Assembly (NCBI GenBank): GCA_903813345.2
Contig: CAIIXF020000002.1
Location: forward strand, 33,994,109 to 34,058,108
Source: Owenia fusiformis
Lineage: Eukaryota; Annelida; Polychaeta; Sabellida; Oweniidae
Direction: 5' to 3'
DNA: 64,000 nucleotides
Shown piece after piece: positions 28,101-50,344 of the stretch; positions within the stretch are counted from its first letter, which is position 1, and each line of letters starts with the position of its first letter. The notes beneath the pieces were generated by a model. That model was not told where the DNA came from, ran no database searches, and saw only the letters and a list, made by a program, of their open reading frames with translations. A program made the position numbers and the translations under genes.

Positions 28101-29967
28101 TAATTTTTGGATTATTTCTTAAAATCATACATGAAAATCACAAAATAAGATTTTCCTTGGAATGTGTATAGGTTTTTTAAGCATTTCTTCTCCAATTTTG
28201 ATAATCCAAGACGATGCTTATGTATGAAAGATGGGAAGTTGCCTACCCTTCTATTGAAAGCCCATGAAGATACAGAAAGCCTAGATGCTGACAATGAATT
28301 AATTTAGACAATCAAACGTTTTTAAATCTGATTTAAATTCCTACCTCATCTCTGACTTCCCTGTCCCTATTTATACTGTACATATGTTGACCCAATTCAA
28401 TTTCCACTGTGTTTATATACGAAACATCACCAGGCCATTCTGGATCTCCTCCTCCATGTTCATGTTCCGAATCCACCTCATGGTCCCCTGTTAAAAGATG
28501 GACATTCACTCTGAAGATAGGATGATCATGGCCGTCTATTCCATCGTATAACAAAGCTAAGGTTTGCCAGCAACCAGTCTGGACATCGTATGTGTGGCCA
28601 TCGAATGTGATATAATGAGCAGCACCCCATACACGGCATTCCGCGGCATCTATTATAAACATCGGTTTATTAATTAAATATTCAAAATGTGTTTTGTATC
28701 TTGTGAAGACGACAGACCATATGTGGGTGTTGGCGTTTTCGACATAGCTTATCTAAATGTATTACGTTTATCAGAAATATAAACATCGATGCCTTCATAA
28801 GTACGTATGTTTTTCATCACGAGTCATTATGTCCTTTTTGTATGCCAGTTTCATCATTATTAGTATACCCATAACGTTTATGTAGATATATGAAGAAAAT
28901 ATGGGGCCCTTAACTACAAAATATCAATTTTCGGTAAAATAATTTAAATTACTACAAATTAGGAATTAATCTTACTAATTACCATTGAGAACACAAAACG
29001 GACAATCGCATTTACAGCGAACGCCACTAGTAGTTTCGCTACAAACCGGATCAAAATTAGTTGGACACTCTAATTGCCCTTGTTCTGTTGTCGCCGTTGG
29101 TCGCTGGGTTGTCCGCCTTGGTGTTGTCCGCCTTGCCGTCGTTGTTCTAGGCGTTGTTCGTCTTAGAGTAGTAGGTCTCGGTGTCGTTGGTCTCGGTGTA
29201 GCAGGTCTTGGTGTCGTTTGTCTTCTATAAGTCCTGGGTGTGGTTTGTTGTACAGTAGTGGTATCCGATGCTGCGTCATCACATTCATAGCCGTCTTTAA
29301 AATCACTTGCTTTCTTCAAAAGTGACTTAAACATCGATTCTATTTTGGAAAGTACCTTAGACACTTTTAGTAGCTGTTTACTGAAGGGTTTGAAAATCTT
29401 TTTCAGAGAGGTCAGTGTCGTCTTTTCCGAACCATCATCAAGCTTTTTAAGTGCACTGGCTATATCTTTACCCCATCTTTTACCAAGTGACGACAGAGTA
29501 TTAATTTGCGATCGTTTTTGTTCCCATGTTAGTGAATCAAACGAGGACAAGTAGTCATCGGCCTGTTTCATTAGATTGTCTCCTAATATACTGATGTAAT
29601 TATTTTCGTCCAGTTCCCTGTACTTTGATTTGACGCGGGGAGAGCCTGAACTCATGGCCGAAATTCCCTTTTGGATAAGTTTGACCTGTTTTGGCATTGG
29701 CTTTAGACTTTTAAGAATCGCTCTCAGTGACTTCTTTTCTGCAGAGGTCAACGTGTCGTCAGTTTTACTTTCTCCGAGTATGACTTTATAAATATCATTT
29801 AAGTTCTTCATTAAGTCGGGCATTGCTTTAGTCTTGTAGGTGTTCGTTAAGTCAATGCTATCTTGAATTCCATCGCATATTGCCACTGATTGACCTACCA
29901 CATTTCTGTAGACTAGCGCCACCACGACGAGGCGCAAAATTAATAAATCTAAAATGTGAAAGACCAT
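15872..29967 (-). CDS. Secreted multi-VWD/C8/EGF protein (left paralogue, complete, 14 exons, 1,375 aa)
   Basis: Exons, 5' to 3': 29967-28983, 28649-28345, 27462-27113, 24640-24372, 23336-23199, 23026-22776, 22609-22248, 22051-21789, 21677-21573, 20966-20838, 20217-19886, 19593-19365, 17281-17140 and 16139-15872. All introns are GT-AG, phases agree throughout, and the total is 4,128 nt with one stop. The order is signal peptide, helical region, Thr/Pro/Arg-rich linker, Cys-rich cap, VWD1-C8-EGF, VWD2-C8-EGF-EGF, VWD3-C8. VWD signatures include GDPHYNTFDG and GMCGNFNGDPDDD. VWD-C8 assemblies of this type (zonadhesin, FCGBP, mucins) form disulphide-linked extracellular polymers or adhesive layers, so a matrix, mucus or adhesion role is likely but unproven. 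Nothing in it looks broken. A tandem paralogue lies at 51147-62975. Confidence 0.9.
17140..17281 (-). CDS. Left VWD gene exon 13 (end of VWD3)
   Basis: Acceptor TTGCAG, donor GTATGT, 142 nt. It encodes [20 protein letters not shown] and ends LPLYDDE. The GMCGNYNG-x-x-DDD motif is the calcium-binding and disulphide end of a VWD domain. Confidence 0.88.
17675..17830 (-). repeat. Possible LINE 3' tail (CR1-like)
   Basis: On the - strand the segment ends GTCATGCTGTACCTTTTATA, then (AATA)n. Short AATA-type tails of this kind occur at the 3' ends of CR1/L2-like LINEs. It interrupts the left arm of the foldback element, since the right arm lacks it. Confidence 0.3.
18370..18746. repeat. Duplicate of intron 10 sequence inside the foldback element
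   Basis: TTAAAACTATGAAACATTTT through TAATTAATCGTTTCACAAG matches 20375-20798 in the same orientation over almost its whole length. The source copy has an extra internal tandem duplication (ACTGGATGACATAATTTTTC twice) that this copy lacks. Related sequence also sits at the same intron position of the right paralogue (about 58710-58890), which marks intron 10 as the original location. Confidence 0.75.
19365..19593 (-). CDS. Left VWD gene exon 12 (middle of VWD3)
   Basis: Acceptor CTTGTAG, donor GTATGT, 229 nt, phase 0 in and phase 1 out. It encodes beta-strand-like residues including WNGVVTVEILPMAIKVQF and ARIYLDEYWKERVKG. It matches exon 56920-57148 of the right paralogue. Confidence 0.87.
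19886..20217 (-). CDS. Left VWD gene exon 11 (start of VWD3)
   Basis: Acceptor TTAAAG, donor GTAGGT, 332 nt. It encodes [20 protein letters not shown], then [10 protein letters not shown], the opening strands of a VWD domain. It has 16 residues (around FPYMYFEYGNDYEVAA) that the right paralogue lacks. Confidence 0.88.
20838..20966 (-). CDS. Left VWD gene exon 10 (EGF-like)
   Basis: Acceptor TCTCAG, donor GTAGGG, 129 nt, phase 1 at both ends. The cysteine pattern is [20 protein letters not shown], then C; a compact EGF/integrin-EGF-like module. The matching paralogue exon is 58931-59059. Confidence 0.87.
21573..21677 (-). CDS. Left VWD gene exon 9 (EGF-like)
   Basis: Acceptor TTCAAG, donor GTTAGT, 105 nt, phase 1 at both ends. 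It encodes [20 protein letters not shown], then KTGFNGVGC, a symmetric phase-1 EGF exon as expected for a shuffled module. Confidence 0.85.
21789..22051 (-). CDS. Left VWD gene exon 8 (C8-like)
   Basis: Acceptor ATGTAG, donor GTAAGA, 263 nt. Cysteines: [18 protein letters not shown], then [26 protein letters not shown]. This fits a C8 module following VWD2. Confidence 0.88.
22248..22609 (-). CDS. Left VWD gene exon 7 (second half of VWD2)
   Basis: Acceptor TTGTAG, donor GTAACG, 362 nt, phase 0 in and phase 2 out. It encodes [20 protein letters not shown] and QNLNGDRTDD. The usual GxCGNxNG is changed to GLCQNLNG, so the motif is diverged in VWD2. Confidence 0.88.
22776..23026 (-). CDS. Left VWD gene exon 6 (first half of VWD2)
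   Basis: Acceptor ATTGCAG, donor GTATGT, 251 nt. It encodes [20 protein letters not shown], then QGDCKYYLV, the VWD opening. The right paralogue exon is nearly identical (62023-62273). Confidence 0.9.
23199..23336 (-). CDS. Left VWD gene exon 5 (EGF-like)
   Basis: Acceptor ATTCAG, donor GTAAGC, 138 nt, phase 1 at both ends. It encodes [20 protein letters not shown], then CGCICAPGYTGNDC; the last part is the classic EGF C-terminal pattern. Confidence 0.88.
23381..23760. repeat. About three tandem units of a diverged 155-160 bp repeat (intron 4)
   Basis: ACATAGAAACA..CCTGAAAAT..CAGATGAATC recurs near 23381, 23535 and 23695, followed each time by GGTTTGG-type and GAAACCT-type sequence. ATGGCCGCC occurs once. 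A related repeat family is seen at 33700-34240. Confidence 0.5.
24372..24640 (-). CDS. Left VWD gene exon 4 (C8-like)
   Basis: Acceptor GGTAG, donor GTAAGT, 269 nt. It encodes DNCGCPGTDNWDIPW and a Cys-rich part (ACNLNDVC, RSCVMDIY, KCEARADVAKACG). It follows VWD1 as C8 does in VWF-like proteins. No paralogous copy is visible because the right gene runs off the window. Confidence 0.82.
26117..26515. repeat. Inverted-repeat element around a tandem duplication (intron 3)
   Basis: The ends are inverted: ACGATTCTCGGTTTGGAGAA (left) and TTTTCCAAACCGAGAATCGT (right). Inside are two diverged head-to-tail units of about 185 bp (26157-26345 and 26346-26510), each opening TCTAA.TGAGC.TTAT and holding AATTTGGGTAATATTTC. 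Confidence 0.65.
27113..27462 (-). CDS. Left VWD gene exon 3 (second half of VWD1)
   Basis: Acceptor TTTCAG, donor GTAAGT, 350 nt, phase 0 in and phase 2 out. It encodes ISGMCGNFNGDPDDDFPEFI, the canonical VWD calcium and disulphide motif, and ends GGLSEELW. Confidence 0.9.
28345..28649 (-). CDS. Left VWD gene exon 2 (first half of VWD1)
   Basis: Acceptor ATAATAG, donor GTAGGA, 305 nt. It encodes CRVWGAAHYITFDGHTYDVQ; the usual GDPH is GAAH here. An acidic and His-rich stretch (HEVDSEHEHGGGDPE) interrupts the strands. Confidence 0.9.
28983..29967 (-). CDS. Left VWD gene exon 1 (signal peptide, helical region, Thr-rich linker)
   Basis: It starts at ATG 29965-29967. Residues 1-25 (MVFHILDLLILRLVVVALVY and following) are a signal peptide. 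Residues about 27-230 are polar, Lys/Leu/Ser-rich and largely helical, with no family I recognise. Residues about 237-300 are repeats of TTPRP/TTPRR type, a likely O-glycosylated linker. A Cys-rich cap (CPTNFDPVC, CKCDCPFC) closes the exon. The donor GTAATT gives a phase-1 join to VWD1. The bulky N-terminal half is what sets this protein apart from plain VWD repeats. Confidence 0.87.
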
Positions 29968-34240: not shown

Positions 34241-35590
34241 TCAAAGGTCAATTCAAATAGTGGTGATTTTTCAGCTAGATATAATTTCATGTTTTATACA
34301 TGTAAAATGATATATTTCTAAAAGAAAGTTTTATCTGTAGTGGTAAACATACAGGGAACATTCAGGAAGAAGACATATTTGGAAGTTGAAAAAATTCATA
34401 TATTTTGAATAGTGAAGCAATATTATACATGCCATTGGGCATTTATATGCACACACTAACTCACATAAATAGAGAATTGGACATAATAGAGCTGGTTATA
34501 CTTTGTATTAGTACAGCTCTACCTGTACTTTTCTGAGGTCAACATGCCCCATGGAAGAAACATATCAGGGCAACACAGACAGAATGGAGTGCACACTGCC
34601 CTGGCCATTACTAATAGGCCTACATTTCAACAGCAGCAGCAGCAGTAGCAGCTTCCTATAATTGACTATAAGGTAAAATTCAAAATGCTCGATGCAACGC
34701 AAGATGGCAATTTATAATACATCATACAGTTCCACAGGTTATACAGGCCGCAGGACTGGTTTGTGATTTGGGAAGTTTACTAAGTGCCCAATACATTCCT
34801 AGCTTAAAGACATGTTAATGAGACTTCTCCGTGGCATTTTTTCTTTATTCCTTTTTGTTTTAAATTTTTACACCATAACATTAACTAACTACTCAATATG
34901 CAACTTTTCACCCGTAGAATTTTAAAATATTAAGTTTGAAAATTCCATTTTTATAATGGAGCTCAATGGGAAATGACATAATTTGGATATTTTCAAATGT
35001 AGCGGCGTGATTTTCTTGAAATTGACAGATATAATAAATATTGGTAAGACAAAATGTTTGAAGAAAAATGAAGAAAATTCACCGTCCTAGTTACGCAAAA
35101 TATAGAAAAACGTGAAATAATCATAAAAACCTATAAAAATAGATTGAAGGGGGTGATATTCATTTTCAATGTGCCTTTCACTACTGCAGGGTAACCATAG
35201 TTTTGGTAATGGTTTACTAATTTTAAAAGCATATCTTCCGGCATGTGTATCAAGCGGAAGTAATACAATAAGTGAGTTATCATTAATTGGAATGGTATTA
35301 TCGTATTCCTTAGCAATTATGACAAAAAGGTTAAATCAATCATATCACATACAAGTTCTTACCATCAAATCGATCTGTTATAATGCATATTAAACAATAT
35401 AGCAGTAAATCTTCAAATTCAAAAATTGAGCTAAATTGTAATATTTCTCCTATATTCCCATAGCTAACCATTTATTTAATGATATAGGTTTTTAATATTC
35501 TTTATCTTATAAATTTTTATATATGTTTTTACAGGTAACATCTTTTGGTTTTTGAAAGCTGCCTTTTGTTGCAGGACTATTTTTAATAAT
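34240..35590. other. No gene recognised; right end may be decayed LINE B tail
   Basis: A short (CAG)n tract lies at about 34630-34653. From about 35120 the - strand may continue the decayed C-terminal part of LINE B, but frames are too broken to say so with confidence. The rest is AT-rich and featureless. Confidence 0.35.
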
Positions 35591-36606
35591 TTAGTTTAGT
35601 CTGCGATAGCACGTACTATTCCTCAGTCTATACTTCATGAAATCTATTTTAATACCAAATTCTTCACTTAAAGATTCGTTAGTTTTAAAAGAATCATCTC
35701 TATTAAGAAGATCATTTATTTTGTTTATTCCTGCAGCATGCCATTCTTTGTAGAAAATTGACTTGTTATTCACCTTTACGTGTTTGTTGTTCCTTATATA
35801 TTGAAGTGTAGTACATCTTCCCATGTTTCAATTTTAATTTCGTTAAAGGAAGCCCAAACATCTAGCATTTTTACATAACATTTTGGCAAATAATTTAAGT
35901 TTAGGAAATTTGTATTGAAGTTGCAGTCAAACAAGAACTTGCCACCACTTTGTCCAAGATATGCCAGGGGTATGGTCATCCAGGTTGCTAATTTATTCTT
36001 TTTAAACCTATTTAACCAAACACATTTAAGGGCTTTATCCATTAATTGATAATCAATCATTTTAAGACCACCTTCCTTAATTGGCGCAATTAACTTTTGG
36101 AGGCTTTTTATTCCACAAATATTCAAAAATTGCTTTATTGATATCATTTATTATGTTCTCAGGAATATATTGTACTGCACTTAAAAAATGTTTGCTGTGA
36201 GATACCTAATGATTTAATTATTTGAATTTTTCCTTCAGAAGTTAAGTTTCTTTGTTTCCAAATATTCAGTTTACTTTTCATGGCTTCTACGAGGGTTGTC
36301 CCAGAAGTAATGCACTATATGCTCTAACTTTCTTTAATATTCCTCAATTAAGCTGAAATTTTGTGTATGTAACAACTGAAGTTTTATCTATTATATCCTT
36401 AAGTTCCAGCTCAAATATTTTTTTTTTTTGTGTTTATTTTTTTTTCTCAATATACATTTTCACTACACAAGGATACAAGGATACAAGTGATTTGCTGTAA
36501 GCCGTTTTTACAAATGAAATAGAAATACAAAGAATACCAAATTCGACACATAGACCCATTCCACTCACACGACATTCATTCAATCATGCATACCACACAC
36601 ATACAA

Positions 36607-36834
36607 TCACTCATCAAAAATATTTTCCAGTCTGAGACCTTCGTTTAAATAGGCTTGAAATCCAACACAAGTCAGTGGCATGTTGGAATAATAAGCTGTA
36701 TGAACATAGTATTTTAATATCAAAACGGAAAAGTTAAACTTTCTAAAATGTTTCCTATCGAAATACCCAACAATGACGTGTTGCTCATTTTTTATAATAT
36801 TTAACAAATCATTGTAAATACCATTATGTGGCAC
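36607..36834 (-). CDS. C-terminal continuation of LINE A ORF2 after an in-frame TAG
   Basis: The reading frame of ORF2 continues for 75 codons after the TAG at 36835-36837. It begins VPHNGIYNDLLNIIKNEQHV and ends LRLENIFDE. Either TAG is a recent nonsense change in this copy, or the frame beyond it is chance; the length and lysine/isoleucine-rich composition favour the first. Confidence 0.5.
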   Translation of the reverse strand: MPHNGIYNDLLNIIKNEQHVIVGYFDRKHFRKFNFSVLILKYYVHTAYYSNMPLTCVGFQAYLNEGLRLENIFDE

Positions 36835-39800
36835 CTAATACTCCCTCTTGGGGGTCATAGCCACTAAAACCTGTAAATATGTTACATTGATTTTAATAAA
36901 AAAAAAAAAAAAGTGTATATCCTTTTCTCTCCATTGATCTCCGAAATATTTTAAAAGACTTTTGATGTTCTTGCACTCCCAAAAACGGTGGACAATCGTC
37001 TCTTTTTGGCCGCAAAAATCACATTTATCATTCGTACGTATACCAACAAGTTTAAGGTACAAATTTGAGGCATAAATATTATTAATAATCTTATACTGTA
37101 ATTCCCAAAAAGCGTGGTTTTTGGTTATGTCATATACCATTGAACACATATCTCGAGCGTTAACATTATATTTGCAACATAAGCGCTTAACGCTTATTGA
37201 TTCAGAAAAACATTGTTGATTGATGTACAATTGAATCATTTTTGTATTCAAATTTTTGATGTGGACCGTTTTGTTACCAATAAAAAACTCTTCGATGCTT
37301 TCAGTATATTCGGTTTCACACTTCGCTTTCGGATCGCTTTTTAAAATTGATTTCCATTTCTTTGGAATGGAAGATATTAGGCTAATGTAGTCTAAAAAGT
37401 CTATATCCACCTGGAACTTGTATTTAAAATCATTCAGTTCCATAAAACTACCATTCCCATTTAGTAAATCATTTATTTGAACAACCCCCATTTCGAAAAG
37501 GCTTTTTTGAAATATCTGTTTACCCTCCCTAAGTATGTATTTATTATGCCATAGTATCTCGCTCTTTACCTCAGAACTGTTTTTTGGTTCCTCCGTCTCA
37601 CTTACCGTTGAATAATATGAAAGAGCATTCATATAGAAATCGGGGATTTTTTGTTTAAATAGGCGTACATCATATCTACATTGCAGAAGTAGATTAAGAC
37701 CGCCAAAATGTTCAAAATATATTCGCGGAATCACTTTCCAGTGGCTAAGTTGGTCATCAAGGAATCGTTTAAGCCACATAATTTTTAGTGCTTTTTCCAT
37801 CGATGTCATGTTCACCATACGAATGCCCCCCTGATCATAAGATCCGACCACAGTATTTCGCTTTATTTTATCCCGTTTCCCTTTCCACAAAAAATTATAA
37901 ATCAAAGTATTCACCTTTGAAATGATGCTGTCGGGCGTAACAGTCATGGACATAGAATATACGATCTGTGAAACTGCAAGGGATTTGATTATCATAATAC
38001 GACCGTAAATAGTGAGATTTCGCTTACCCCAGAGGTTCAGAATCCTCTTCAACGATTCTATTTTCCGGTCAAAATTTATCGCCTTATTATGCTCTGGATC
38101 GTATGATACACTGATGCCTAAAAACTTACTTGGCCTCTTTACCCAAATACAGCCCCCAATATTCGGATTTACACCATCATGGTTGGCACCAACACTAAAA
38201 CATTCGGTTTTTTCCTTATTAATTTTTAGGCCCGATAATTGATAAAAAATTTCGAAAATGCTTAAGGCAGCTTCAAGGGAATTTGCATCTTTGAGTATTA
38301 GAGACGTGTCATCGGCATACATAATCAATTTCTGAGTGTGGCCATTTAGATCGATTCCTTTCACATTTTCATCTTGCCTGATCTTAAGGGCAAGAACCTC
38401 AATACATATAACAAAAAGGGAGCAACTTAACGGATCTCCTTGACGGACACCCATATGTACTTTAAACCACCCAGTAGAATGCCCGTTGTTCAATACGCAG
38501 CTATTGATATCAGTGTAAAAGAGCTTAACCCAACGGATTAACTCATCGCCAAAATTAAAGTACCGCAACGCAAAATCAATAAAACTCCATTCGATACTGT
38601 CATATGCTTTTTCAAAGTCAATTAAAGAAATAATGCCTGGTATTTTCCTTTCTCTAGTATATACTAGTAAATCCTCCATAAATCGAATGTTTTCGCCAAT
38701 CAGTCTTCCTTTGACAAAGGCAGTCTGATCGGGTTCAATAATCGCGCAGAGAACCGCTTCAATTCTCTTACTTACCACTTTAGAAACAATTTTATAATCT
38801 ATATTTAACAATGAAATTGGACGCCAGTTTTTAAGCAGAGATAAATCCTTTCCCGATTTTTCAATCAAAGATATTACGCCCTGCCTTTGACTAACAGATA
38901 AGAGTCCAACTCTAAGTGAGAGGTTAAAACTGTCAACAACACCTGTCGAAATGTCGTTCCAAAATGCTTTATACCATTCGGCCGAAAGGCCATCACTCCC
39001 CGGTGTTTTGTTCGACTTAAAAGTTGAGAGAACTTTAAAGCATTCTGCTTCAGTAAGTCTGAGTTCGCACGATGCCTTCTGCGCTTCAGATAGTTTACGC
39101 GACTGTAGATTATTAGTAAAAATGTCAAAATCTTTGAAATCGGGCGAGACCTTTTCAGAGCATAAATCTTGATAAAAGAGTTTAATTTCATTCAAAAAAC
39201 GAGTATCATTTTCGATACTTACTCCACCAATCGACAAATTTGTTATGTGTTTTTTCTCGTGGTTTGATTTTTCCAAATTAAAGAAAAAAGACGTACATCT
39301 TTCATTTTTTTCATACTGGTCAATTTTTGCTCGGACCAAATGACCTTCCGCCTTATAGATACACATTTTTTCAAGTTTGACTTTTGCTCTTTCATAGGCT
39401 TCACATACCGAAGAGATTAAGGTAGAGCCGTCACTTGCAATTAAAGATTCAAGATGTTCGATCTCCTTTAGTAACTCAAGTTCAGCTTTTCGATTCTCAC
39501 GACATTTTAACTTTGAAAAATGTATTGTCTTTTCCTTAATTTTGAACTTCATGAATTCCCATAATTCGATCTTGCTGAGATCACGGTGCTCGTCACGTAA
39601 TTTTGTTATGAGGCTTCGGATGCTTAAAGAGTACTCCTCGTCTTGTAGCAAACTATTATTAAATTTCCAAAAACCCGCCCCCCTCATTTCTGTATCCAAA
39701 CCAATATTAAGTCGTAATAATTTATGATCAGAAAGAATGGCAGGCTCGATAAAGCACTCACAATTCTTTTTGATCCTCCTGTCAACAAAAAACATATCAA

Positions 39801-40458
39801 TCCTACTTTTAAATTTTGAATTTTTAAACTCATCCTTCGCAAAGGACTCATAAGTATATTGTACCGCAGAAGGGTTTAACGTTCTCCAGATATCAAAAAG
39901 ATTAAAATCATGTATCATTGATCTCACGATACCGGCAGATTCGGATTCTTTATGTTTTGTCATTCCGTAGGAATATCTATCCGTATTAGGGTCGAGAATC
40001 ATGTTACAATCACCTCCTATAATCAAAAAATCTGAAGCAAAGTTCGTTGAAATATGAGTGTGAAGCTTTTCAAAGAAAGTCTTATTTTCGTGACTATCGT
40101 TTGGCGCGTAGATATTCACAAAAGTATAAGAGTGAGTACCTATTTTACATTTAATGATAACATACCTACCTGACGAATGTGTATCGATATCCAAAATGTC
40201 ATATCGCTGATGTTTAGAAAAAAGTATAGCGACTCCACGCTCGCTCCGTTTTTGACCATGCGCAAAATATATATCAGATCCCCATTCCCATTTCCACATA
40301 TTTTCATCGGCTATTGACGAATGGGTTTCTTGTAGAAAAACAACATCAAGTCTTTTTCTTTTCAGAAATAAGAAAATAGACGCCCTCTTTTTATTTTGTC
40401 TCAGTCCCTTCGTATTTAGGGACCCTAAATTTAAGTTACGGATAGGAGCAATATGGTT
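36835..40458 (-). CDS. LINE A ORF2: endonuclease-reverse transcriptase
   Basis: The frame is open from 40458 to the TAG at 36835-36837. The first ATG is at 40299, but the frame above it encodes the start of the AP-endonuclease (NLNLGSLNTKGLRQNKKRA, then VVFLQETHSS with the metal-binding Glu), so translation should begin upstream of that ATG. The endonuclease continues with FVNIYAPND, GGDCNMILDPNTDR and SDHKLLRLN. Reverse transcriptase: GSDGLSAEWYKAFW, NWRPISLLNIDYKIVSK, IDFEKAYDSIEW, GVRQGDPLSCSLFV and the YADD box. A C-terminal Cys-rich part (CDFCGQKETIVHRFWEC) follows. It nicks target DNA and primes reverse transcription from the nick. About 1,207 codons, within the L1 ORF2 size range. Confidence 0.92.
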   Translation of the reverse strand, partial: NHIAPIRNLNLGSLNTKGLRQNKKRASIFLFLKRKRLDVVFLQETHSSIADENMWKWEWGSDIYFAHGQKRSERGVAILFSKHQRYDILDIDTHSSGRYVIIKCKIGTHSYTFVNIYAPNDSHENKTFFEKLHTHISTNFASDFLIIGGDCNMILDPNTDRYSYGMTKHKESESAGIVRSMIHDFNLFDIWRTLNPSAVQYTYESFAKDEFKNSKFKSRIDMFFVDRRIKKNCECFIEPAILSDHKLLRLNIGLDTEMRGAGFWKFNNSLLQDEEYSLSIRSLITKLRDEHRDLSKIELWEFMKFKIKEKTIHFSKLKCRENRKAELELLKEIEHLESLIASDGSTLISSVCEAYERAKVKLEKMCIYKAEGHLVRAKIDQYEKNERCTSFFFNLEKSNHEKKHITNLSIGGVSIENDTRFLNEIKLFYQDLCSEKVSPDFKDFDIFTNNLQSRKLSEAQKASCELRLTEAECFKVLSTFKSNKTPGSDGLSAEWYKAFWNDISTGVVDSFNLSLRVGLLSVSQRQGVISLIEKSGKDLSLLKNWRPISLLNIDYKIVSKVVSKRIEAVLCAIIEPDQTAFVKGRLIGENIRFMEDLLVYTRERKIPGIISLIDFEKAYDSIEWSFIDFALRYFNFGDELIRWVKLFYTDINSCVLNNGHSTGWFKVHMGVRQGDPLSCSLFVICIEVLALKIRQDENVKGIDLNGHTQKLIMYADDTSLILKDANSLEAALSIFEIFYQLSGLKINKEKTECFSVGANHDGVNPNIGGCIWVKRPSKFLGISVSYDPEHNKAINFDRKIESLKRILNLWGKRNLTIYGRIMIIKSLAVSQIVYSMSMTVTPDSIISKVNTLIYNFLWKGKRDKIKRNTVVGSYDQGGIRMVNMTSMEKALKIMWLKRFLDDQLSHWKVIPRIYFEHFGGLNLLLQCRYDVRLFKQKIPDFYMNALSYYSTVSETEEPKNSSEVKSEILWHNKYILREGKQIFQKSLFEMGVVQINDLLNGNGSFMELNDFKYKFQVDIDFLDYISLISSIPKKWKSILKSDPKAKCETEYTESIEEFFIGNKTVHIKNLNTKMIQLYINQQCFSESISVKRLCCKYNVNARDMCSMVYDITKNHAFWELQYKIINNIYASNLYLKLVGIRTNDKCDFCGQKETIVHRFWECKNIKSLLKYFGDQWREKDIHFFFFFIKINVTYLQVLVAMTPKREY

Positions 40459-43400
40459 TCACCAAAGACTTAGCCATAAGACCGCGTAACACAGGCATAC
40501 ATACATTATACTTGCCCAGGTGGTCAAAACCCCGGAGGAATATCAGATAAAAGCATTTTATATTTTTTCGGTCTAGTGCATCTACAGATAGGATATAACA
40601 CACTACCTCATACCTTACACAATAAAAACTCGTATATGTATTTGAGTTACTCACATAAATCCTGTTCAATACAAAAGACATGCACACACAAAAGGCATTC
40701 AGGTGCAACACACTCACGCACATCAAAGCACACATTATCGCACATAAATACATGGTATGATTTGCAAAGTCACAAAAACATACATTCACACCCAAACATT
40801 CGAGACTCACAGAGTATTTAACAGAAACAATATTCATTTTCAAAATACAAAAAGACGCCGCTTCAAAAACCTTTGCATGGAAGTCCAGTCGTATGCGTAC
40901 AGTAGCGGTAATAATTCAATATACAGTTTTAAAAAAATGTGGTTTACAGAACATAAGTTATATACCCTTCTCAACCATTACTTAAATTCCTACAATAAAT
41001 CACCCTGGCTGTTGGGAATAGTCAGTATAGTTACGCCCTGACTATCTAAAAAGATTATTTAAAGGGGCCTACAATTGAAACACTTTTATAAATGTTTGAA
41101 TGTTTGATCGAGAAACACAAAATCGAAAAAATGGCCCCATAAGTATTTGTAAGTAGTAAGCATTGTTTCGAAAAAAAGAAAACCTCTAGCTAGCTACTAG
41201 CCATCAGTTACATCCCTCTATTAATAAACCTTGGAATTTATAGATAGGTTTCGCCTTCGCACCCAAGAAACAGGTAACTCACAAAGCAACCCAATTAACA
41301 GGTTACTCAAAAGGCAATTCAAGAAACAGGTAACTCAAATGGCAACCCAAGAAACGGGTTACTCAAAAGGGGTCTACATTTAAGAACGTATAGACATATT
41401 TTTGATACATGATTGAGATAAACAAGGTTGAGAAAGCTGCCCATAAATCACAATTAAGTAACCAGTGTTGTTTCAAGTAAAAAAAGAAAACTAAATTTAC
41501 ATATTGAAAAATATCAATAGGAGTATCATCACATAAGGTAAACCTAAAAAATACATGCTGCCAAAACATCAGTTGCTACATAAGACGCTAACATATTGTT
41601 ATTGAAGAGGCTACCTTGCACAACCAGGTTACTGTTTTGACAATGCATCTTTTACAGTACCAAAAATACTCGTTTCCATCATAAGTGGGTACTGGCAGAT
41701 CATATAAATCTTTGACCATTTTCAATGGTGTAACTATTCAAAATGCAACCCAAGAAACACGTTAATCAAAAGAGTCTACATTTAAGAACGTAATAAACAT
41801 ATTTTTGATACGTGATTGAGATACACAAGATTGAAAAGGCTGTCCCATGAATCACACTTGAGTAGTTTCAAAAAGAAAAAAGAAACACTGAATATACATA
41901 TTGAGAAATATTAATCATCACATAAGGTAAAAACCTAAAATAATACTTGCTGCCAACATCCGCGGCTACATAAAACGCTTTACATTTTGTTAGTGTAGGG
42001 GCTACATTACACAACCAGATTATTGTTTTAACAAAACATTTTTTACAATACCAAAAATGCTTGTTTCCATCGTAGATGGGTACTGGAAGATAATATAAAT
42101 CGTTGACCATTTTCAATGGTGTAACTATATCTCTTACGCAGTGTAAATTCATCACAACTTGATCTATCCAAAAAAGGCCATTAAATTGTACTGAGAAACA
42201 TTACAAGTTATTTCTTGAAATATTTGCACATTGCTTTACATGTACTAACTTGACTCTGAAAAGAAAACATCATTCGGTTATAATCTACAGGAATGGCGAA
42301 AAATAACTGCAACCCTACAGTCTAGTTCGTAAAAGGTTTAAGTATTGGTTAGGCAGAGCATAGCATGCTATACAAGGTATGTATTGACCAATCGTAAAAC
42401 AGGCAGATTTCCATTTCTAACAAGCAAGATCATTCATCATTCCATGTTTTGCCTGTTGATATGTGACACTTACCAAACTTAGGATACAGAGGCTATTCAT
42501 TTATCAGACATATCCTAATATCGATTTTTACCTCAAAATAGTAGGAAGACAAGACAACACCTGTATAACAATTAGGCATGATATGGTTGCGTTATCGTTT
42601 CTTAAGATTAAATAGCAGTGGTTAGCACACATGGAAAAAAGAGACACCACTCACATAATTTACAGATGAAACAACATTTGTTTTGAAACTGACTTGCTTT
42701 GAAATTGTAATTTTGACCATTGGAACGTGTAAAAATAAATAAAAATTAATACCCTATACAGTATACAGATTACAAAGTGCGAAGTCGTGTAAAACAGATA
42801 ATACGGGTTTTATACCAGTTAACATTGCCATTTTAGTATGCAATCAAGAATCATTAACCTGGAAATAGCTTTTACATTTCGATGTAAATTGCAAACAGCA
42901 CAAAATTGTGCATGAGGTTTTGTCTTCACTAATATGTGCCCCTACAAAGGACATATTGTCATAAAATTAAAGTAAATGCATTCCATATACGAAACAACCA
43001 CAAACTTCCGTAATTTTTCGAAGTATTACAACTATGAAGCAATTATATGTGGTGGAAATAGAAAGGATTTAATGCAATCTAAATGTATTAAACAAAAGTA
43101 AATCACGCAAAAGACATATTGTCATAAAATGAAAGTAAATGCATTTCATGTACGAAACAACCACAAACTTCCGTAATTTTTCGAAGTATTACAACTATGA
43201 AGCAATTATATGTGGTGGAAATAGAAAGGATTTAATGCAATCTAAATGTATTAAACAAACGTAAATCACGCAAAAGACATATTGTCATAAAATGAAAGTT
43301 ACTGGATTTCATTTACGAAACAACCACAAACTTCCGTACTTTTTCGAAATATTGCAACTATGAAGCAATTATATGTGGGGGAAATAGAAAAGATATTAAA

Positions 43401-43686
43401 CAAACGTAAAATAAAAAAAAAAAAAATCTATCAAGTAAATGCCTATGTCCATGGTATAACCATTGCATTTAACAGTCCAACTGTCATACATGTAAGTTGT
43501 AGTAATCAATCTGAAAAAGGTAAATGTCAGTCTTTGATCAATATACCTAACTGTGTTTGTTAAGCATGAGTCCCCATATAAAACTGTATGTGGAGTTAGC
43601 TAAATGCATTTTGTTATAATGCACTGATGATTTTCACCTTGAAAAGATAGAGTCAGTCTTTCTCGTCCACACAGTATAATATATAT
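40459..43686 (-). repeat. 3.2-kb inter-ORF spacer of LINE A with internal duplications
   Basis: There is no frame with a recognisable domain. Two head-to-tail copies of about 400 bp (41371-41733 and 41774-42128; GTCTACATTTAAGAACGTA to CATTTTCAATGGTGTAACTA) lie here. Three head-to-tail copies of about 190 bp sit between 42953 and 43400 (AAAGACATATTGTCATAAAA opens units two and three). Short AAGAAACAGGTAACTCA repeats lie at 41265-41355. Most L1-type LINEs have a far shorter gap between ORFs. Confidence 0.7.
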
Positions 43687-44934
43687 TTAGGGCTTCCCGA
43701 GTTCGTCTCTAACTGCCATCAATGATAAGCCTCCTAGGTTCTGGCCAGTCCACTTAGTGGTGTCGGTTGATGCTGGGTCATTCAGACGTAAGCCGTTCCC
43801 GCTTAAAGGGTCGAAAGGGTTGCATTCCCCTAGCTTATTCGAGCCGGTGGTCATTAGTGCTGCCTTCAGTTGCTCGTTCTGGGTAAACTTAAGCCTATTA
43901 CCTTTGGTAAGAAATTCCTTGAGGCAATCTGGCCATTTACCGACGTTTGCACCCATATCAAGGCCCCGGATAATACGTCTGCAATCCTGTGGGTTTTTCG
44001 CCGTAAGTATTGATTCTGCGATCTTGACGTTATCGAAGGCTATGGCTTTTTGGAAGGCAATGTACTGTGTAAGTGACTTAAAGATTACTCCATTTTCGCT
44101 AAAAGATGAGTAAAAATTTGGTCCAAGAGGACTAGTGTCACTATTATAAAGCATGAGATCGTCATTCTTTATATACGTGTTGTCAAAAGGGGCAAAAGCC
44201 GCTGGCAGTGTGTGCAAAGTATCCACTCGAAATTTCACGCCCTCTAAGATCAGATTGTCGGCAAATAGCGAGGCTCGCATATTCATGGCCTTTGCCTTTT
44301 TGAAGATAGGATACAAGATCTTCCTATTGGTTTCCACTTCGTACGGTAGGCTTTCACTGATTATGTATCTCCCCGGGACGTCTTTAAGAGTAAAGCGTTT
44401 GTTCCAAACACGTTCGAGGTCCTGGAACCAATTGAACTTGGCAGTAATCGTGCGTGTGTATTTAAAGTTTTTCTTGGGGCCCAGGGGTATCCTGTGTACT
44501 CTCTCAAAACGCATTTCCGTAGGGTCGACATTAAGTTTTGTCCTTATGAACTCGCGAATTACATCTTCACATATCTCACCCTCTGCCTCAGGAATGTTGG
44601 CGAAGTGCAAAGCACTGCGACGTGAATATATGTCCATATCCACCTGTTTTGCGTGGAGGGCGTCAATGGCCTTGTTTAATTGTCGCAGGCTGTTATTAGA
44701 TGATTGAGAACTCTCATCAGCTTGTTTCTCAAGAGCGGCGATGCGAGTTTCGAGGGCTAGGATATCCTTTTTATTCTCCGTAGCTAAATCCTGCGCATAT
44801 CCAATAGCCTGTTTCACATCTGCAAGTTCCTTCTTGAATTCGTTTGTCAATTTGACAGTCTGTGCTTCCAAAACAGTATTTAGTTGTTCCAGCGTAACTC
44901 CAGAGCTGGAGCTCTGCCTATCGTGTTTACCCAT
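43687..44934 (-). CDS. LINE A ORF1: coiled coil + RRM-like/CTD + NADAR domain (415 aa)
   Basis: Residues about 14-100 form a heptad-rich coiled coil. Residues about 105-175 (YSRRSALHFANIPEAEGEIC, FERVHRIPLG, YTRTITAKF) are an RRM-like domain and about 175-235 a C-terminal RNA-binding domain (YIISESLPYEV, RKILYPIFKKAK), as in L1 ORF1p, the RNA-coating chaperone. Residues about 261-413 resemble NADAR/YbiA-like proteins: QYIAFQKAIAF, KW (W334), RLKFTQNEQLKAALMTTGS, FDP..GNG and LGGLSLMAVRDEL. NADAR proteins act on riboflavin-pathway intermediates or ADP-ribose-type molecules. By eye, the Glu usual in 'S.E[HQ]Y' is Thr289 and the Trp of 'D..WG.G' is Ser378, so activity is doubtful. The frame has no stop or gap. 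Confidence 0.88.
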   Translation of the reverse strand: MGKHDRQSSSSGVTLEQLNTVLEAQTVKLTNEFKKELADVKQAIGYAQDLATENKKDILALETRIAALEKQADESSQSSNNSLRQLNKAIDALHAKQVDMDIYSRRSALHFANIPEAEGEICEDVIREFIRTKLNVDPTEMRFERVHRIPLGPKKNFKYTRTITAKFNWFQDLERVWNKRFTLKDVPGRYIISESLPYEVETNRKILYPIFKKAKAMNMRASLFADNLILEGVKFRVDTLHTLPAAFAPFDNTYIKNDDLMLYNSDTSPLGPNFYSSFSENGVIFKSLTQYIAFQKAIAFDNVKIAESILTAKNPQDCRRIIRGLDMGANVGKWPDCLKEFLTKGNRLKFTQNEQLKAALMTTGSNKLGECNPFDPLSGNGLRLNDPASTDTTKWTGQNLGGLSLMAVRDELGKP

Positions 44935-46810
44935 CGGAATTTATGAATGTTTGTAGTATACGAGTATATGAAGTTTATGCTTACGGGAGAATGCTCCTTA
45001 CGACATATACGTGTAGCGTGTGAGTGTTCCAGTTGAGAGTTCTCCCTTATAATCACACGCCTCGTAGGTTCATAAAAGAGAGAATATATGTCAGAATATA
45101 TGAAATTTCGATTACCTGCTTCAGTAATGTTCCTGACCATATATCATATAGACATATCCAAAGATAATATCCAAATTTTTTCCGTTTGAATGTATAATCC
45201 AGATGTTGTGTGATTTTACGCCTGGGTGAATAAACGAAAATTTTGTCCACGTGTACAATTATGTATCATCCAGAAACGTCGATTCTTTACTCAATATTCC
45301 ATATTTTGGTCAGATAAAGATACCAAACTGCGCTACATATGTTCCGATTATAGGTAATCTAAAGATTTAGTCCGTAACCATCCAGACTTCCATACAGGTC
45401 TTGAAATTAGCGGAGCTATCACAAATCACTCATGTCCGGTCGCCATCTTGAAATCTTCTATCATCAAATATTAATATTAAGTCTTAATATGGTTGCTATA
45501 GCAACATGGGGGTAGGGGTGGGCGGGTCAGGTACCAATTTTTCTAATTATGAAAAGATCTAAAGTGTTATTTTATTAATTTTTCTTTCTTTTAAATGATC
45601 AAAATGTTTGGGAAATTGTTGAATTTATTCAGCATAATGTTAACCAAGTACAAATAGTGACATTACGCACTGTGATGTCATAATACCACCTTTCAATAGT
45701 CACAAATTCAAATACAGTCACAGTCAAGAAATTACGAAAATGGCTACAATTCTCACCTGATAACAGAAGGCCTTGCGTTTGGTGGCCTTATTTCATACTA
45801 CGCTTGGACTCACAGCCACGCAAAACGTATGCTACCATGAGGAAAGTATATAAGGAGTATATATCAGGTAGAACTATAATTATGAGGTGGCAGAAGAGAT
45901 TTAAAAGAGATGATTCGACCCTGGATGACAACTCCAAGCATGGGAGGCAAAAACTCCACAAGTCACAGTGGAAGAAATTGCCAAGAGTGTTTGACCTGAC
46001 AGGCATCAAAAGTACATAACATGCAAAGGGCAATATTTTGAGAAAATGTGAAATGGGACACTGTGCATTATACATCCATTAAATCTAGGGTGTGCTCATA
46101 GTAATTAAGTATCTTAAAATGTATTTTTGAGCATACTTATTATAGCTACACAAAATAGTATTTTGTGATTAATCATTTCATATTTTCTATTTTTTATTCC
46201 TTTTGACGTGACTGTATAACCTGCCCCGCCCTATCCAAACTCACCAACTTGATTTTATTATAACATCGATATAGTTTTGTGAATCAATATGAAAATTTGT
46301 AGAATCATCAAAATGTCTCTAAGGAACATTTACTGGAAATTTCATGGAAAAAATCAATTATTGATAAAGTTAGAGCATATAGTGCATTACTTCTGGGACA
46401 ACCCTCGTACTTTAGTATATACACTATTGTTCACTTCAACTTGATTGTAAGATAATGTGACACCAAGTGCGATCACTGCTGCTTTTGGGTTTAATGTCTA
46501 AAACAGTATCAGAACTCTCCCGTTTTGCTCCTACCCACATGTCTTCTGTTTTGTTCTTATTGATTTGTAGACCTGAACACTTTTCAAAGTTTTCTAATAT
46601 TTCCATTACTCGTTTTGCTGATGCTTCATCTTAACTGAATACTGTTGTATCGTCAGCATATTGTGTCACCCGAGCTTCAAAATCGTTTGTTATGTTGATA
46701 CCTTCTATATCATTATCTGACCTTAATGCTATACTCAATACTTGTGCAACCATTATAAATAGAATGTCTGATATTGGGTCACCTTGTCGCACACCACGCT
46801 CCACCCTTAA

Positions 46811-48958
46811 GAAAAAAGCCATGATGGTAACCATGGTATTTCATGGTACGTCCATGGTAATCCATGGTTTTCCATGGAAATTCATGGTTTTTCATGGTAT
46901 TTTCCATGGAAATTCATGGAAGCCCATGGTAATATTCCATGGATATTTACAATGATTTACCATGGTAATTAGTGGTTTGATAATTGTTTTTTCATGGACA
47001 TGTCATGTTTTTACCATGGCACTTGAGTTGTAAAATCAACAATTTGGCAGGTTTTGATTTTACAAAAATCTTCCAAATTGAATCAATGTTTTAACGAATG
47101 AATCAGAGCTGGATTGAGACTAATCATAGAGAGAAGAATACTAGTATGATGTCCCCCTCAAATTTTTGGGAAAGTCAACCTTCTTAACAGAAGCTGGTTT
47201 CAGGCCTGAAATACAACCATGTTTTTTCCAATCTGAATATATGTTTATTCCATTCTGTATATAGTGTCATATGACAAAGAACTTTTTATTAAATAATTTT
47301 TGAATTGATGATTTGACCCCACAATTAGATTTAATAATTTGTTTGCTGGGATTTGCTATCATTAAACTTTGGCACAAATGTAAAAAAGACAAAATAATTG
47401 ATGAAATCAGCTCACCGGATTCTCTTATTGCAGACTGAATAAACGTTTTTACTAGTAAATCCTGTTTGGTTTTATTTGATCAACAATGAGTTTTTGACTT
47501 GCACTGTCTACATTCACAGACAATAATAATTACTGAAGAGGGAGCACTAGAAAGAGTAAGATTATCATATATAATAACAATTAAGATCAGAATATTTAAG
47601 AATTATGCAAATGAACTATTATAATCTGTCGCAAAGAGATTAATTTTTTAACATTAATTTGAGAGTTAAGACACCTAATTAACTATGAATAATGGCAACC
47701 AAATATTTAAAAATTATGCAAATGATTATATATTCCTATTCAAAGACAATTCAATATTTATTACTATGATTCATGTTTTAAGCCAAATGGTGTTGTTAAC
47801 CCCCCTCCCTCCTTCATGCAACTACTTTTTAAATGGATTATATATAACATTCTTACCTAGACAAATTTAATTTTGATCACTTAGGTATTACATTTCAGTT
47901 TGCAGCCATAGACTTGTGTTTAATCCCCAATCTCAAGTCAAATTTCTGAAAAAGTATATACTTTCTGTGGATTTTTCAGATAATATGCTTGTCACAGAAA
48001 ATTTCATTTAGAAACTAATGTATTATTCTTTTTTCTGCATCCAAAAGACCAAAAATAGCCCATGGAAAACCATGGACTTTTAAAAGATCAAAAGAATAAC
48101 CATGGAAAACCATGGACATTTAAAAGATCAAAAGAATAACCATGGGAAACCATGGCTTTTGATTGCACTTTCTGAAACATCAAAGAAATAACCATGGAAA
48201 AACATGGTTTTCGATTGCAATCAACCAACTTCCATGGCTTTTGATTGCAGTTTCCTCAACTTCAAAGAAAGAAACCACGGTTTTGATCGCATTCTCAAAT
48301 GTAAGAAATTAGTTATTTATTTATTAAATTATTGATTTTTATAACTGAAAATTAAAGAAAGTAATGAAACAAAACAGAGCTTAGGCTAGTTTGACTTAAT
48401 CTTTTTCAAAGGTTAGAAGTGTTTGGCCTCAAAAATAAGCAATCTCTATCTAGTCTTGATCCAAAAGCCCTTTCCACAATTCTCTTTGAAATCTTATGGC
48501 CTACTCTGTGCTGATTAACTGCATTGTCATATTTCTTAATAGAAAAGTTACATAATTTTCACATATTTTCTCATTTGTAAGGAAGCTGAGTTTAACATTC
48601 GATGAATGCTCTTGCTAAACCTAAGAACCCGGGCCTAAGAAATGAAATGTTCACCCTTTTTTCTCAATGATAAGTCTCACATCAATACATTCATTTTGGA
48701 GATTTTGGTAAATACAAATCCTACCAAAATTGTTGATTTTACAACTCCATGTGTTACAGTAAAAACCATGACACATCCATGAAAAACCAATTACCAAACC
48801 ACTAATTACCATGGAAAATCATGGTAAATATCCATGGAAAATTACCATGGGCGTCCATTAATTTCCATGGAAAATCATGAATTTCCATGGAAAACCATGG
48901 ATTACCATGGACGCACCATGGAATACCATGGAATATCATGGTTACCATGTTTTTTTTC
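46811..48958. mobile_element. CCATGG-rich TIR element at a TTAA site (non-autonomous)
   Basis: Inverted repeats of about 230 bp (46811-47045 and about 48735-48958) begin GAAAAAA and are packed with CCATGG/TCATGG, about 14 per arm. Both ends abut TTAA (46807-46810 and 48959-48962), or CTTAAG if the outer C/G are counted. Another CATGG cluster with two tandem AAAAGATCAAAAGAATAACC units lies at 48056-48300. About 1.7 kb of the interior has no frame with a recognisable domain. TTAA is used by piggyBac- and Kolobok-type elements; the ends do not fit piggyBac well. It splits the reverse transcriptase of LINE B. Confidence 0.82.
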
Positions 48959-48964
48959 TTAAGG

Positions 48965-49664
48965 GCATTTTAAAAAATTCAGATGCTTTCCCATTATTCA
49001 AAATTGTGCTTTCGAGGTTATTATGAAGAGCCTTAATAAAATTAATAAAAATTGGACCAAAGTTAAATTTTTGTAATGTTTTCAACATGAATGACCAATT
49101 AATACTGTCAAACGCTTTTTTGAAGTCAATTGGTAGGAATATTCCATTCTTATTGTTATCTTTGGTAAATTCCATAAGATCTTTCATTAATCGTATACTT
49201 TGTCCAATAAATCTACCCTCTACATAGCCAGTTTGATCTTCGTGTATGATTTTTGGTAAAATTTTCCTGAGTCTTTCACTAAGTACCTTTGTGCATATTT
49301 TATAATCATAATTTAAAAGGGTAATAGGCCTCCAATTTTCTAAATGCTGTTTATTTTTTTTTTTTAGGAATGAGTGAGATAATACCTCTTTTTGTGATAT
49401 TGATGCTTCTCCCTTTATTAATAAGAAATTAAAACTTTTAATCAAATCCTCTTTGATGAAATCCCAAAATGTAAGGTAAAATTCAACTGTTAACCCATCA
49501 CAGCCTGGGGTTTTATTTTTCTTTAATGATTTTAATGCATGTAAGCATTCTTTTTCAGTTAACTGTTGTTCACAACTATTCTTATCTACCTCACTTATTG
49601 TTGGTATATTATCATTTAAAAATTCCCTTTCATATTGTGGATTACTTTCTCTTTTACTGTACAA
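48965..49664 (-). pseudogene. LINE B reverse transcriptase, first half (palm/fingers)
   Basis: About 232 codons of open frame with KKNKTPGCDGLTVEFYLTFW, NWRPITLLNYDYKICTKVL, DQTGYVEGRFIGQSIRL and LPIDFKKAFDSINW. It is cut off by the CCATGG-rich element after FFKMPL, and resumes at 46806 with RVERGVRQGDP and QYADDTTVFS. Confidence 0.85.
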
Positions 49665-50344
49665 ATCTTTATAATATTATCTTTCTGTTTCTAATATTTC
49701 TGAACTTTCTGTTACTAACTTTCCTTGCTTGTTATATATTGAGTTTATTACCTTCTTTGTAAATTTTTTTTCCTAAGTTCAGAAAATACTTGAGATTTTC
49801 TCCATATTCACACCAGTTTGCTTTGCTCCTTATCATACCGCTCCTTGTTCGTCTATCTTGTATTATTTCAACCTTAAGTTTCGATCTATTGTATTGCATT
49901 AAAGTGTTCTCATTTTTATTTTTATCTAATTCCAACTGTGCTTTATTCAATTCAACCAAAGCTTCTTTCTCTTCATTTTTCCTTTCTCTGGCCTTGTTCT
50001 TACTAAATTTCTGAGTAAGTTACATCAATAAATTTTATTTTTGCTTCCTCAATTGCTTTTTGCATACTCTCTAAGTATTTGGGGTCTCTATCAAACATAG
50101 CATTATATTTCCAGAAACCTGGTCCACGTTCTGTGAAGTCCTTAGGAATGTAGTTTAAAACAGCTGCATGATGGTCAGAGGAAGGGCCCCATATACACTA
50201 CGTTAAATGCAATCACACACGGTGCTTCCGGGTTAACTCATACCCCATTCTTAAAAACCTCCAACGGCAGGAAAGCTGATCATTTTATCAATCAAGTGTT
50301 TAAAAGTTCTCCTGTCTTCCTCTTACAACTCATTTCTACATTAG

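Follow-up and report, generated by a model that had tools for sequence, protein, structure and literature searches.

An L1-type LINE ORF1 protein carrying a C-terminal NADAR domain in the annelid Owenia fusiformis

Does a retrotransposon RNA-binding protein of the annelid Owenia fusiformis carry a domain that handles ADP-ribose, and if so, is the fusion shared by a protein family and what might it do? The question is raised by a 64-kb stretch of genomic DNA, here called the window, in which the initial annotation, made from the letters alone, described one uninterrupted 415-codon frame joining an L1-type LINE ORF1 protein (ORF1p) to a NADAR (YbiA-like) domain. We find the frame as it was described, and we divide it as follows.

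43687..44934, minus strand: ORF1, an L1-type ORF1 protein plus C-terminal NADAR; 415 amino acids, ATG start, no internal stops
44620..44892, minus strand: coiled-coil helix, ORF1 residues 15–105, from the AlphaFold helix and a heptad count
44344..44619, minus strand: RRM-like domain, ORF1 residues ~106–197
44209..44343, minus strand: L1 ORF1p-type CTD, ORF1 residues ~198–242
43696..44175, minus strand: NADAR domain, ORF1 residues ~254–413

The order of coiled coil, one RRM and CTD in ORF1 is that of a type II (L1-type) LINE ORF1p, as the type is defined in PMC4120745, and the heptad a and d positions of the helix are 61.5% hydrophobic in the best phase versus 24–50% in six others. The NADAR part had been named from its motifs, and it now has a strong profile and fold match: the Pfam NADAR model PF08719 matches ORF1 residues 278–412 with an E value of 4.6e-25 and 89.2 bits (curated cut-off 35.1), and a NADAR fold is present with high confidence in the predicted ORF1 structure (AlphaFold, with the comparison made among Foldseek's best 1000 chains). 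When the window protein is searched as a single sequence against the PDB, it matches the NADAR entry 8bau at E 2.2e-07 and YbiA (2b3w) weakly, at E 0.12. Searched alone, it has no match to the L1 ORF1 Pfam models, and the L1-type assignment therefore rests on the family profile and the fold. The profile of the 41 relatives described below matches 8bau (3.8e-32), YbiA (1.2e-25) and human LINE-1 ORF1p (2yko, 2.2e-15), where the stretch matched to 2yko includes the coiled coil and many unrelated coiled-coil chains were attracted in the same PDB list; the same profile matches 2ldy, a coil-free ORF1p RRM-CTD entry, at 2.6e-09. From the profiles and the predicted structure taken together, we regard ORF1 as confirmed to be a genuine fusion of an L1-type ORF1p and a NADAR. 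A second ORF1 or NADAR was not found in the 64-kb window, where the best other matches have E values of 5.3 and 0.28.

Is this protein part of a LINE? At lower coordinates, and on the same strand as ORF1, lies a second long frame, and the ends of a candidate element surround both.

36835..40458, minus strand: ORF2, an L1-clade endonuclease–reverse transcriptase; first ATG at 40299, open and ATG-less from 40299 to 40458
40459..43686, no strand: 3.2-kb spacer that separates ORF2 from ORF1; tandem repeats of ~403 bp (two copies) and 163 bp (three copies)
36418..36429, minus strand: poly(A), the probable 3′ end of the LINE (T on the plus strand)
36411..36419, no strand: candidate target-site duplication, left copy TCAAATATT (as on the plus strand), overlapping the poly(A) end
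45464..45472, no strand: candidate target-site duplication, right copy, 9 bp

By comparison with the PDB, ORF2 is of the L1 clade: it matches human LINE-1 ORF2p (8sxt) at 4.5e-77, colinear over residues 9–838, R2 at 3.3e-24 and the LINE-1 endonuclease (1vyb) at 6.6e-13. ORF1 and ORF2 share a strand and stand 3.2 kb apart, and the candidate duplication would bound a 9.0-kb LINE at 36420–45463, a duplication of 9 bp that is not significant alone, since the same comparison holds another 9-bp match. Because of the strand, the order, the poly(A) and the candidate duplication ends, we treat the two frames as belonging to one element, an assignment that is supported but not proved, and the link of a NADAR-ORF1 to a LINE ORF2 comes in this analysis from the window only, with a like case reported for the Tx1 families of the oyster. 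The spacer contains no convincing insertion boundaries. It holds a 14-base A run at 43413–43426 that may end another insertion. A search of the window against Rfam gave no match.

The LINE appears to be the innermost of several nested elements, as judged from the following features.

36288..36331, plus strand: 44-bp terminal inverted repeat, left, of a mariner-like relic
46366..46409, minus strand: 44-bp terminal inverted repeat, right, of the same relic, 100% match
35564–36290, 46517–46813 and 48960–49676, minus strand: pieces of an older L1-like ORF2, 28–51% identical to ORF2 (the longest, 43%)

The relic (36288–46409) amounts to 1069 bp once the LINE is subtracted. We take it to be mariner-like, and one frame in the 1069 bp presumably reads as a mariner-type helix-turn-helix piece, with many stops. 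The older LINE ORF2 is split by a foldback element and by the relic, and the positions of the elements thus place the relic inside the older LINE and the NADAR LINE inside the relic; the Tx1 LINE of Xenopus also sits within a DNA transposon. The foldback-like element, at 46831–48931 between pieces of the older ORF2, has CCATGG-rich inverted ends and arms at 46899–47012 and 48762–48875 that are 91% identical. Farther off, an LTR element at 2473–7371 has identical 203-bp direct repeats (2473–2675 and 7169–7371) around a 1339-aa frame (2963–6982, minus strand) with matches to gag, protease, RT, RNase H and integrase, not all of them above cut-off, and it looks Ty3/Gypsy-like and young. A 330-aa frame at 28975–29967 (minus strand) starts with hydrophobic residues, contains a stretch rich in Thr, Pro and Arg and is Cys-rich at its end; it has no Pfam match above cut-off and might encode a portion of a protein that the host secretes.

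Next is the matter of whether the fusion extends beyond this one copy. Two single-protein searches, which returned 6 and 36 proteins, gave at least 41 distinct proteins, a lower bound because in the larger of the two, as in the profile search below, only candidates sharing most words were scored. Whether related proteins keep the NADAR had been raised with the initial annotation, and all 41 carry it, the Owenia copies covered being P0002 and P0003. The RRM and CTD are likewise present in 41/41 by leave-one-out profile, the weakest at 98 bits. In P0013, P0016, P0022, P0024 and P0042, fewer than 50 residues precede the RRM, which leaves no space for a full coiled coil, and these may be truncated records. 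The O. fusiformis members of the family are P0001 (the window protein), P0002 and P0003, the last of which seems to leave frame within the NADAR and to end early, although this may also be a gene-model error. On these alignments, the fusion defines a family of proteins and extends beyond the window copy, and we reject a read-through or chimera because at least 41 relatives carry the fusion.

A third, profile-based protein search gave four matches, of which P0007 alone was new. In a profile comparison this protein, from the salamander Pleurodeles waltl, can be aligned over the coiled coil, RRM and CTD with 97.3% probability; no NADAR match was found in it, and it was kept out of the family alignment. 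P0007 looks like an L1-type ORF1p without a NADAR, and the NADAR therefore seems to have been added to a protein of that type. Searches of viral contigs with two family alignments returned none with one and two with the other, each with a NADAR frame, and a prokaryote genome search with a closer alignment returned one locus, which was left out of the analysis.

The RRM+CTD tree and the NADAR tree have 15 of 38 splits in common, as compared with a mean of 0.13 and a maximum of 2 in 200 label shuffles, and because this sharing lies far above the shuffles, we conclude that RRM+CTD and NADAR have mostly descended together. Over the 703 non-Owenia pairs, mean identity is 38.6% for RRM+CTD and 37.6% for NADAR, with the NADAR the more conserved in 297; over the 77 pairs with an Owenia row, the means are 32.8% and 28.8%, and the NADAR is the more conserved in 11 (P0003 was excluded from these pairwise counts). 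The N-terminal part falls below the identity of both other parts in all 11 of the individual pairs compared. The window protein and P0002 share 28% of residues in the N-terminal part, 49% in RRM+CTD and, over 150 columns, 40% in NADAR; this NADAR identity is within the range of 166 non-Owenia pairs of similar RRM+CTD identity. By these measures, conservation of the NADAR across the family is close to that of the RNA-binding part; in Owenia it is somewhat lower, which fits relaxed constraint as well as new function.

A NADAR tree was made from 40 ORF1 rows (P0003 left out), 46 viral rows (55 before duplicate removal) and YbiA, and on it the ORF1 label requires 2 changes as compared with a shuffled mean of 29.0, so the ORF1 rows cluster; six viral rows fall on the ORF1 side, at low resolution. 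From this tree, it is likely that the LINE NADARs arose once.

Is the NADAR pocket intact? Residue roles were taken from section 12 of PMC11543638, with the numbering hand-matched to the 8bau alignments at an offset of two. Three codons of the window are of particular concern.

44068..44070, minus strand: Thr289 codon, at the position of YbiA E48 / 8bau E43, the ribose-binding Glu
43825..43827, minus strand: Glu370 codon, retained, at the position of YbiA E125 / 8bau E125, reported catalytic
43801..43803, minus strand: Ser378 codon, at the position of YbiA/8bau W133

Thr289 and Ser378, which the initial annotation had singled out as unusual, do align to YbiA E48 and W133. In the family alignment with YbiA, the ribose-binding Glu position is E in 38/41 and T in 3/41, and those three are the Owenia rows. 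The Lys position (YbiA K55 / 8bau K50, Lys296 in the window protein) is K in 38/41 and R in 3/41, and the catalytic Glu is E in 40/41 with a gap in the remaining one. The first Trp (8bau W89) is W in 35/41, the second (W133) is W in 37/41, and the Asp position (8bau D130, Asp375 in the window protein) is D in 33/41, with six changes on the family tree. When gaps are scored as non-standard, E43, K50, E125 and W133 (8bau numbering) are jointly standard in 35/41, and all six of E43, K50, W89, E125, D130 and W133 in 23/41 only. The window protein keeps K296, W334, E370, D375 and N399, or five of the seven site positions checked.

The change from Glu to Thr at the 289 position takes one step on the RRM+CTD tree. 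There are 34 NADAR positions at which 80% or more of the 38 non-Owenia relatives agree. The window protein departs at nine of them, among which are 271–273 (where the others have SNF), 289 and 378, and P0002 is altered at all nine as well; at 30 conserved RRM+CTD positions, the window protein also departs at nine, and five of these are common to P0002. Because the same nine NADAR positions are altered in both proteins, the pocket was probably changed in the ancestor of the Owenia copies seen, before they diverged. The initial annotation took the substitutions to mean binding without catalysis, and this was too strong. Glu370, Lys296 and Asp375 are kept, and in the part of PMC11543638 that deals with the E. 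coli C7 NADAR, E88A, at the residue corresponding to Thr289, affected activity only slightly in vitro, although E88Q was inactive and substitutions at E88 failed to rescue cells; the position equivalent to Glu125 was tested there via the equivalent Asp of the same protein. Given the minor effect of E88A in vitro, the protein of Owenia may be catalytically active, and an inactive, a weak or an altered NADAR may each be compatible with its sequence.

What, then, might a NADAR do on an RNA-binding protein of a LINE? We favor the following reading, to which we give slightly less than an even chance: an ancestral enzyme on the RNA coat acted against host ADP-ribosylation, and the Owenia branch binds ligand with weak or altered hydrolysis. 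By homology to human ORF1p, a trimer would coat the element RNA, so that many NADARs would sit on the ribonucleoprotein. Because the active-site residues are mostly conserved family-wide, the ancestral role was probably enzymatic, and the NADAR would remove ADP-ribose from guanine, or another ADP-ribose conjugate, on the element RNA or cDNA or on nearby proteins, which could shield the LINE from ADP-ribosylation by the host or undo damage of this kind. The ancestor of the Owenia copies would have acquired a different ribose side of the pocket, which its descendants retained; their NADAR most likely remains able to bind a ligand resembling ADP-ribose, and its hydrolysis would be weak or altered. 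We infer this mechanism, an RNA-coating trimer bearing ADP-ribose-handling domains, and defence against host ADP-ribosylation, an idea raised in the initial annotation, is offered as a hypothesis. That LINEs of invertebrates recruited a nucleic-acid de-ADP-ribosylase to the RNA coat as a counter-defence against host guanine ADP-ribosylation in particular, with one annelid branch having turned it into an ADP-ribose reader, seems to us doubtful. No enzyme of a host is known to us to ADP-ribosylate the nucleic acid of a LINE. The NADARs tested in the experiments described in PMC11543638 and PMC11125620 strip ADP-ribose from guanine, and PMC9503650 proposes that the NADARs of eukaryotic RNA viruses target macromolecular ADP-ribosylation by host enzymes. 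Clam CARP-1 and butterfly pierisins make the guanine–ADP-ribose linkage according to PMC11543638, where, in the section concerned, reversal of these marks by NADAR is assumed and not tested.

The NADAR might instead act on a small molecule, such as an NAD-derived signal, a riboflavin intermediate or cyclic ADP-ribose, with ORF1p merely carrying it along with the RNA. YbiA and its relatives are described as N-glycosidases of riboflavin intermediates (PMC9503650, PMC9303266), and one passage of PMC9503650 raises a possible preference of viral NADARs for derivatives of ADP-ribose that are soluble, while another proposes macromolecular targets for those of eukaryotic RNA viruses; but fusion to an RNA-binding protein would argue for a target in nucleic acid or bound to the ribonucleoprotein, and we think the small-molecule role unlikely. 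We are similarly disinclined to see the Owenia NADAR as a passenger decaying after loss of function, with the RNA-binding part alone needed. The substitutions at two key residues, the lower identity to P0002 in NADAR than in RRM+CTD and the early end of P0003, unless that is a gene-model error, are what decay could produce, yet the fold is predicted with high confidence even at 40% identity with five of the seven site positions kept, the NADAR identity to P0002 is inside the range of the 166 comparable pairs, and the nine changed positions are common to both proteins.

A purely structural or nucleic-acid-binding module that packs the ribonucleoprotein without contacting ADP-ribose would leave it unpredicted that four pocket residues are standard in 35/41 relatives. 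Such a module would have parallels in the positive surface that PMC11543638 describes on DarT1-associated NADARs, which could bind ssDNA, and in SNA-3, a trans-splicing protein of nematodes with three NADARs of unknown function (PMC9303266). In the account given in PMC9303266, however, mutating residues relevant to N-glycosidase activity impaired SNA-3, which speaks for the site, and we consider the structural role improbable. That the window protein is a one-off read-through, a chimera or a domesticated host gene outside any LINE protein family strikes us as extremely improbable: ORF1 and ORF2 are separated by an unusual 3.2-kb spacer, and the target-site duplication has just 9 bp, but NADAR and RRM+CTD are common to 41 distinct proteins, and ORF1 shares its strand with an L1-clade ORF2, a poly(A) and a candidate target-site duplication (in the window only).

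The function of NADARs in animals is presented as an open question in PMC11125620. A LINE family that keeps a NADAR with a mostly intact pocket would make it possible to test how ADP-ribosylation of nucleic acids is connected with the control of retrotransposons, and the Owenia branch would be a natural variant of the NADAR pocket. If the counter-defence reading were true, guanine ADP-ribosylation would be an unrecognised animal defence against retrotransposons.

Among known systems, human LINE-1 ORF1p (2yko) lacks a NADAR and is 16% identical to the window protein over the aligned part, and the NADARs of Phytophthora nicotianae (8bau) and E. coli (YbiA, 2b3w) are entries that are not part of an ORF1 protein, whereas the window protein has its NADAR on ORF1, with Thr289 and Ser378. 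ORF1 proteins have recruited further domains elsewhere, as in the LINE ORF1 proteins of types III and IV with PHD and esterase domains described in PMC4120745, but those are other domains, in CR1 and L2 elements. An LTR retrotransposon with a YbiA-family NADAR also pairs a retrotransposon with this domain; in that case, however, the NADAR lies in Pol and not on an RNA-binding ORF1, and its matches are almost only bacterial, for which its authors suggest possible horizontal transfer. The NADARs of animal positive-strand RNA viruses, annelid and bivalve picornaviruses included (PMC9503650), likewise belong to RNA-based parasites of invertebrates, but as described there they lie inside polyproteins and not on a protein that coats LINE RNA.

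The closest case is in the oyster Crassostrea gigas, where PMC12477816 notes NADAR-like (YbiA-family) domains in the ORF1 proteins of LINEs from several Tx1 families and suggests that they take part in processing the RNA intermediate. The fusion is thus already on record, and within open-licence PubMed Central (subscription papers and Repbase reports being outside the scope) this is the only report of an ORF1–NADAR fusion that we found. The oyster proteins and the window protein are alike in being LINE ORF1 proteins with a NADAR in an animal host. They differ in that the host here is an annelid and in that the window ORF2 is assigned at the level of the L1 clade, and the oyster case occupies one sentence and a suggested role in the relevant passage of PMC12477816, without site or tree analysis. 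The fusion itself therefore has a short precedent in print, and what is new here is the annelid members, the co-descent of both parts of the protein and a pocket that was probably altered in Owenia.
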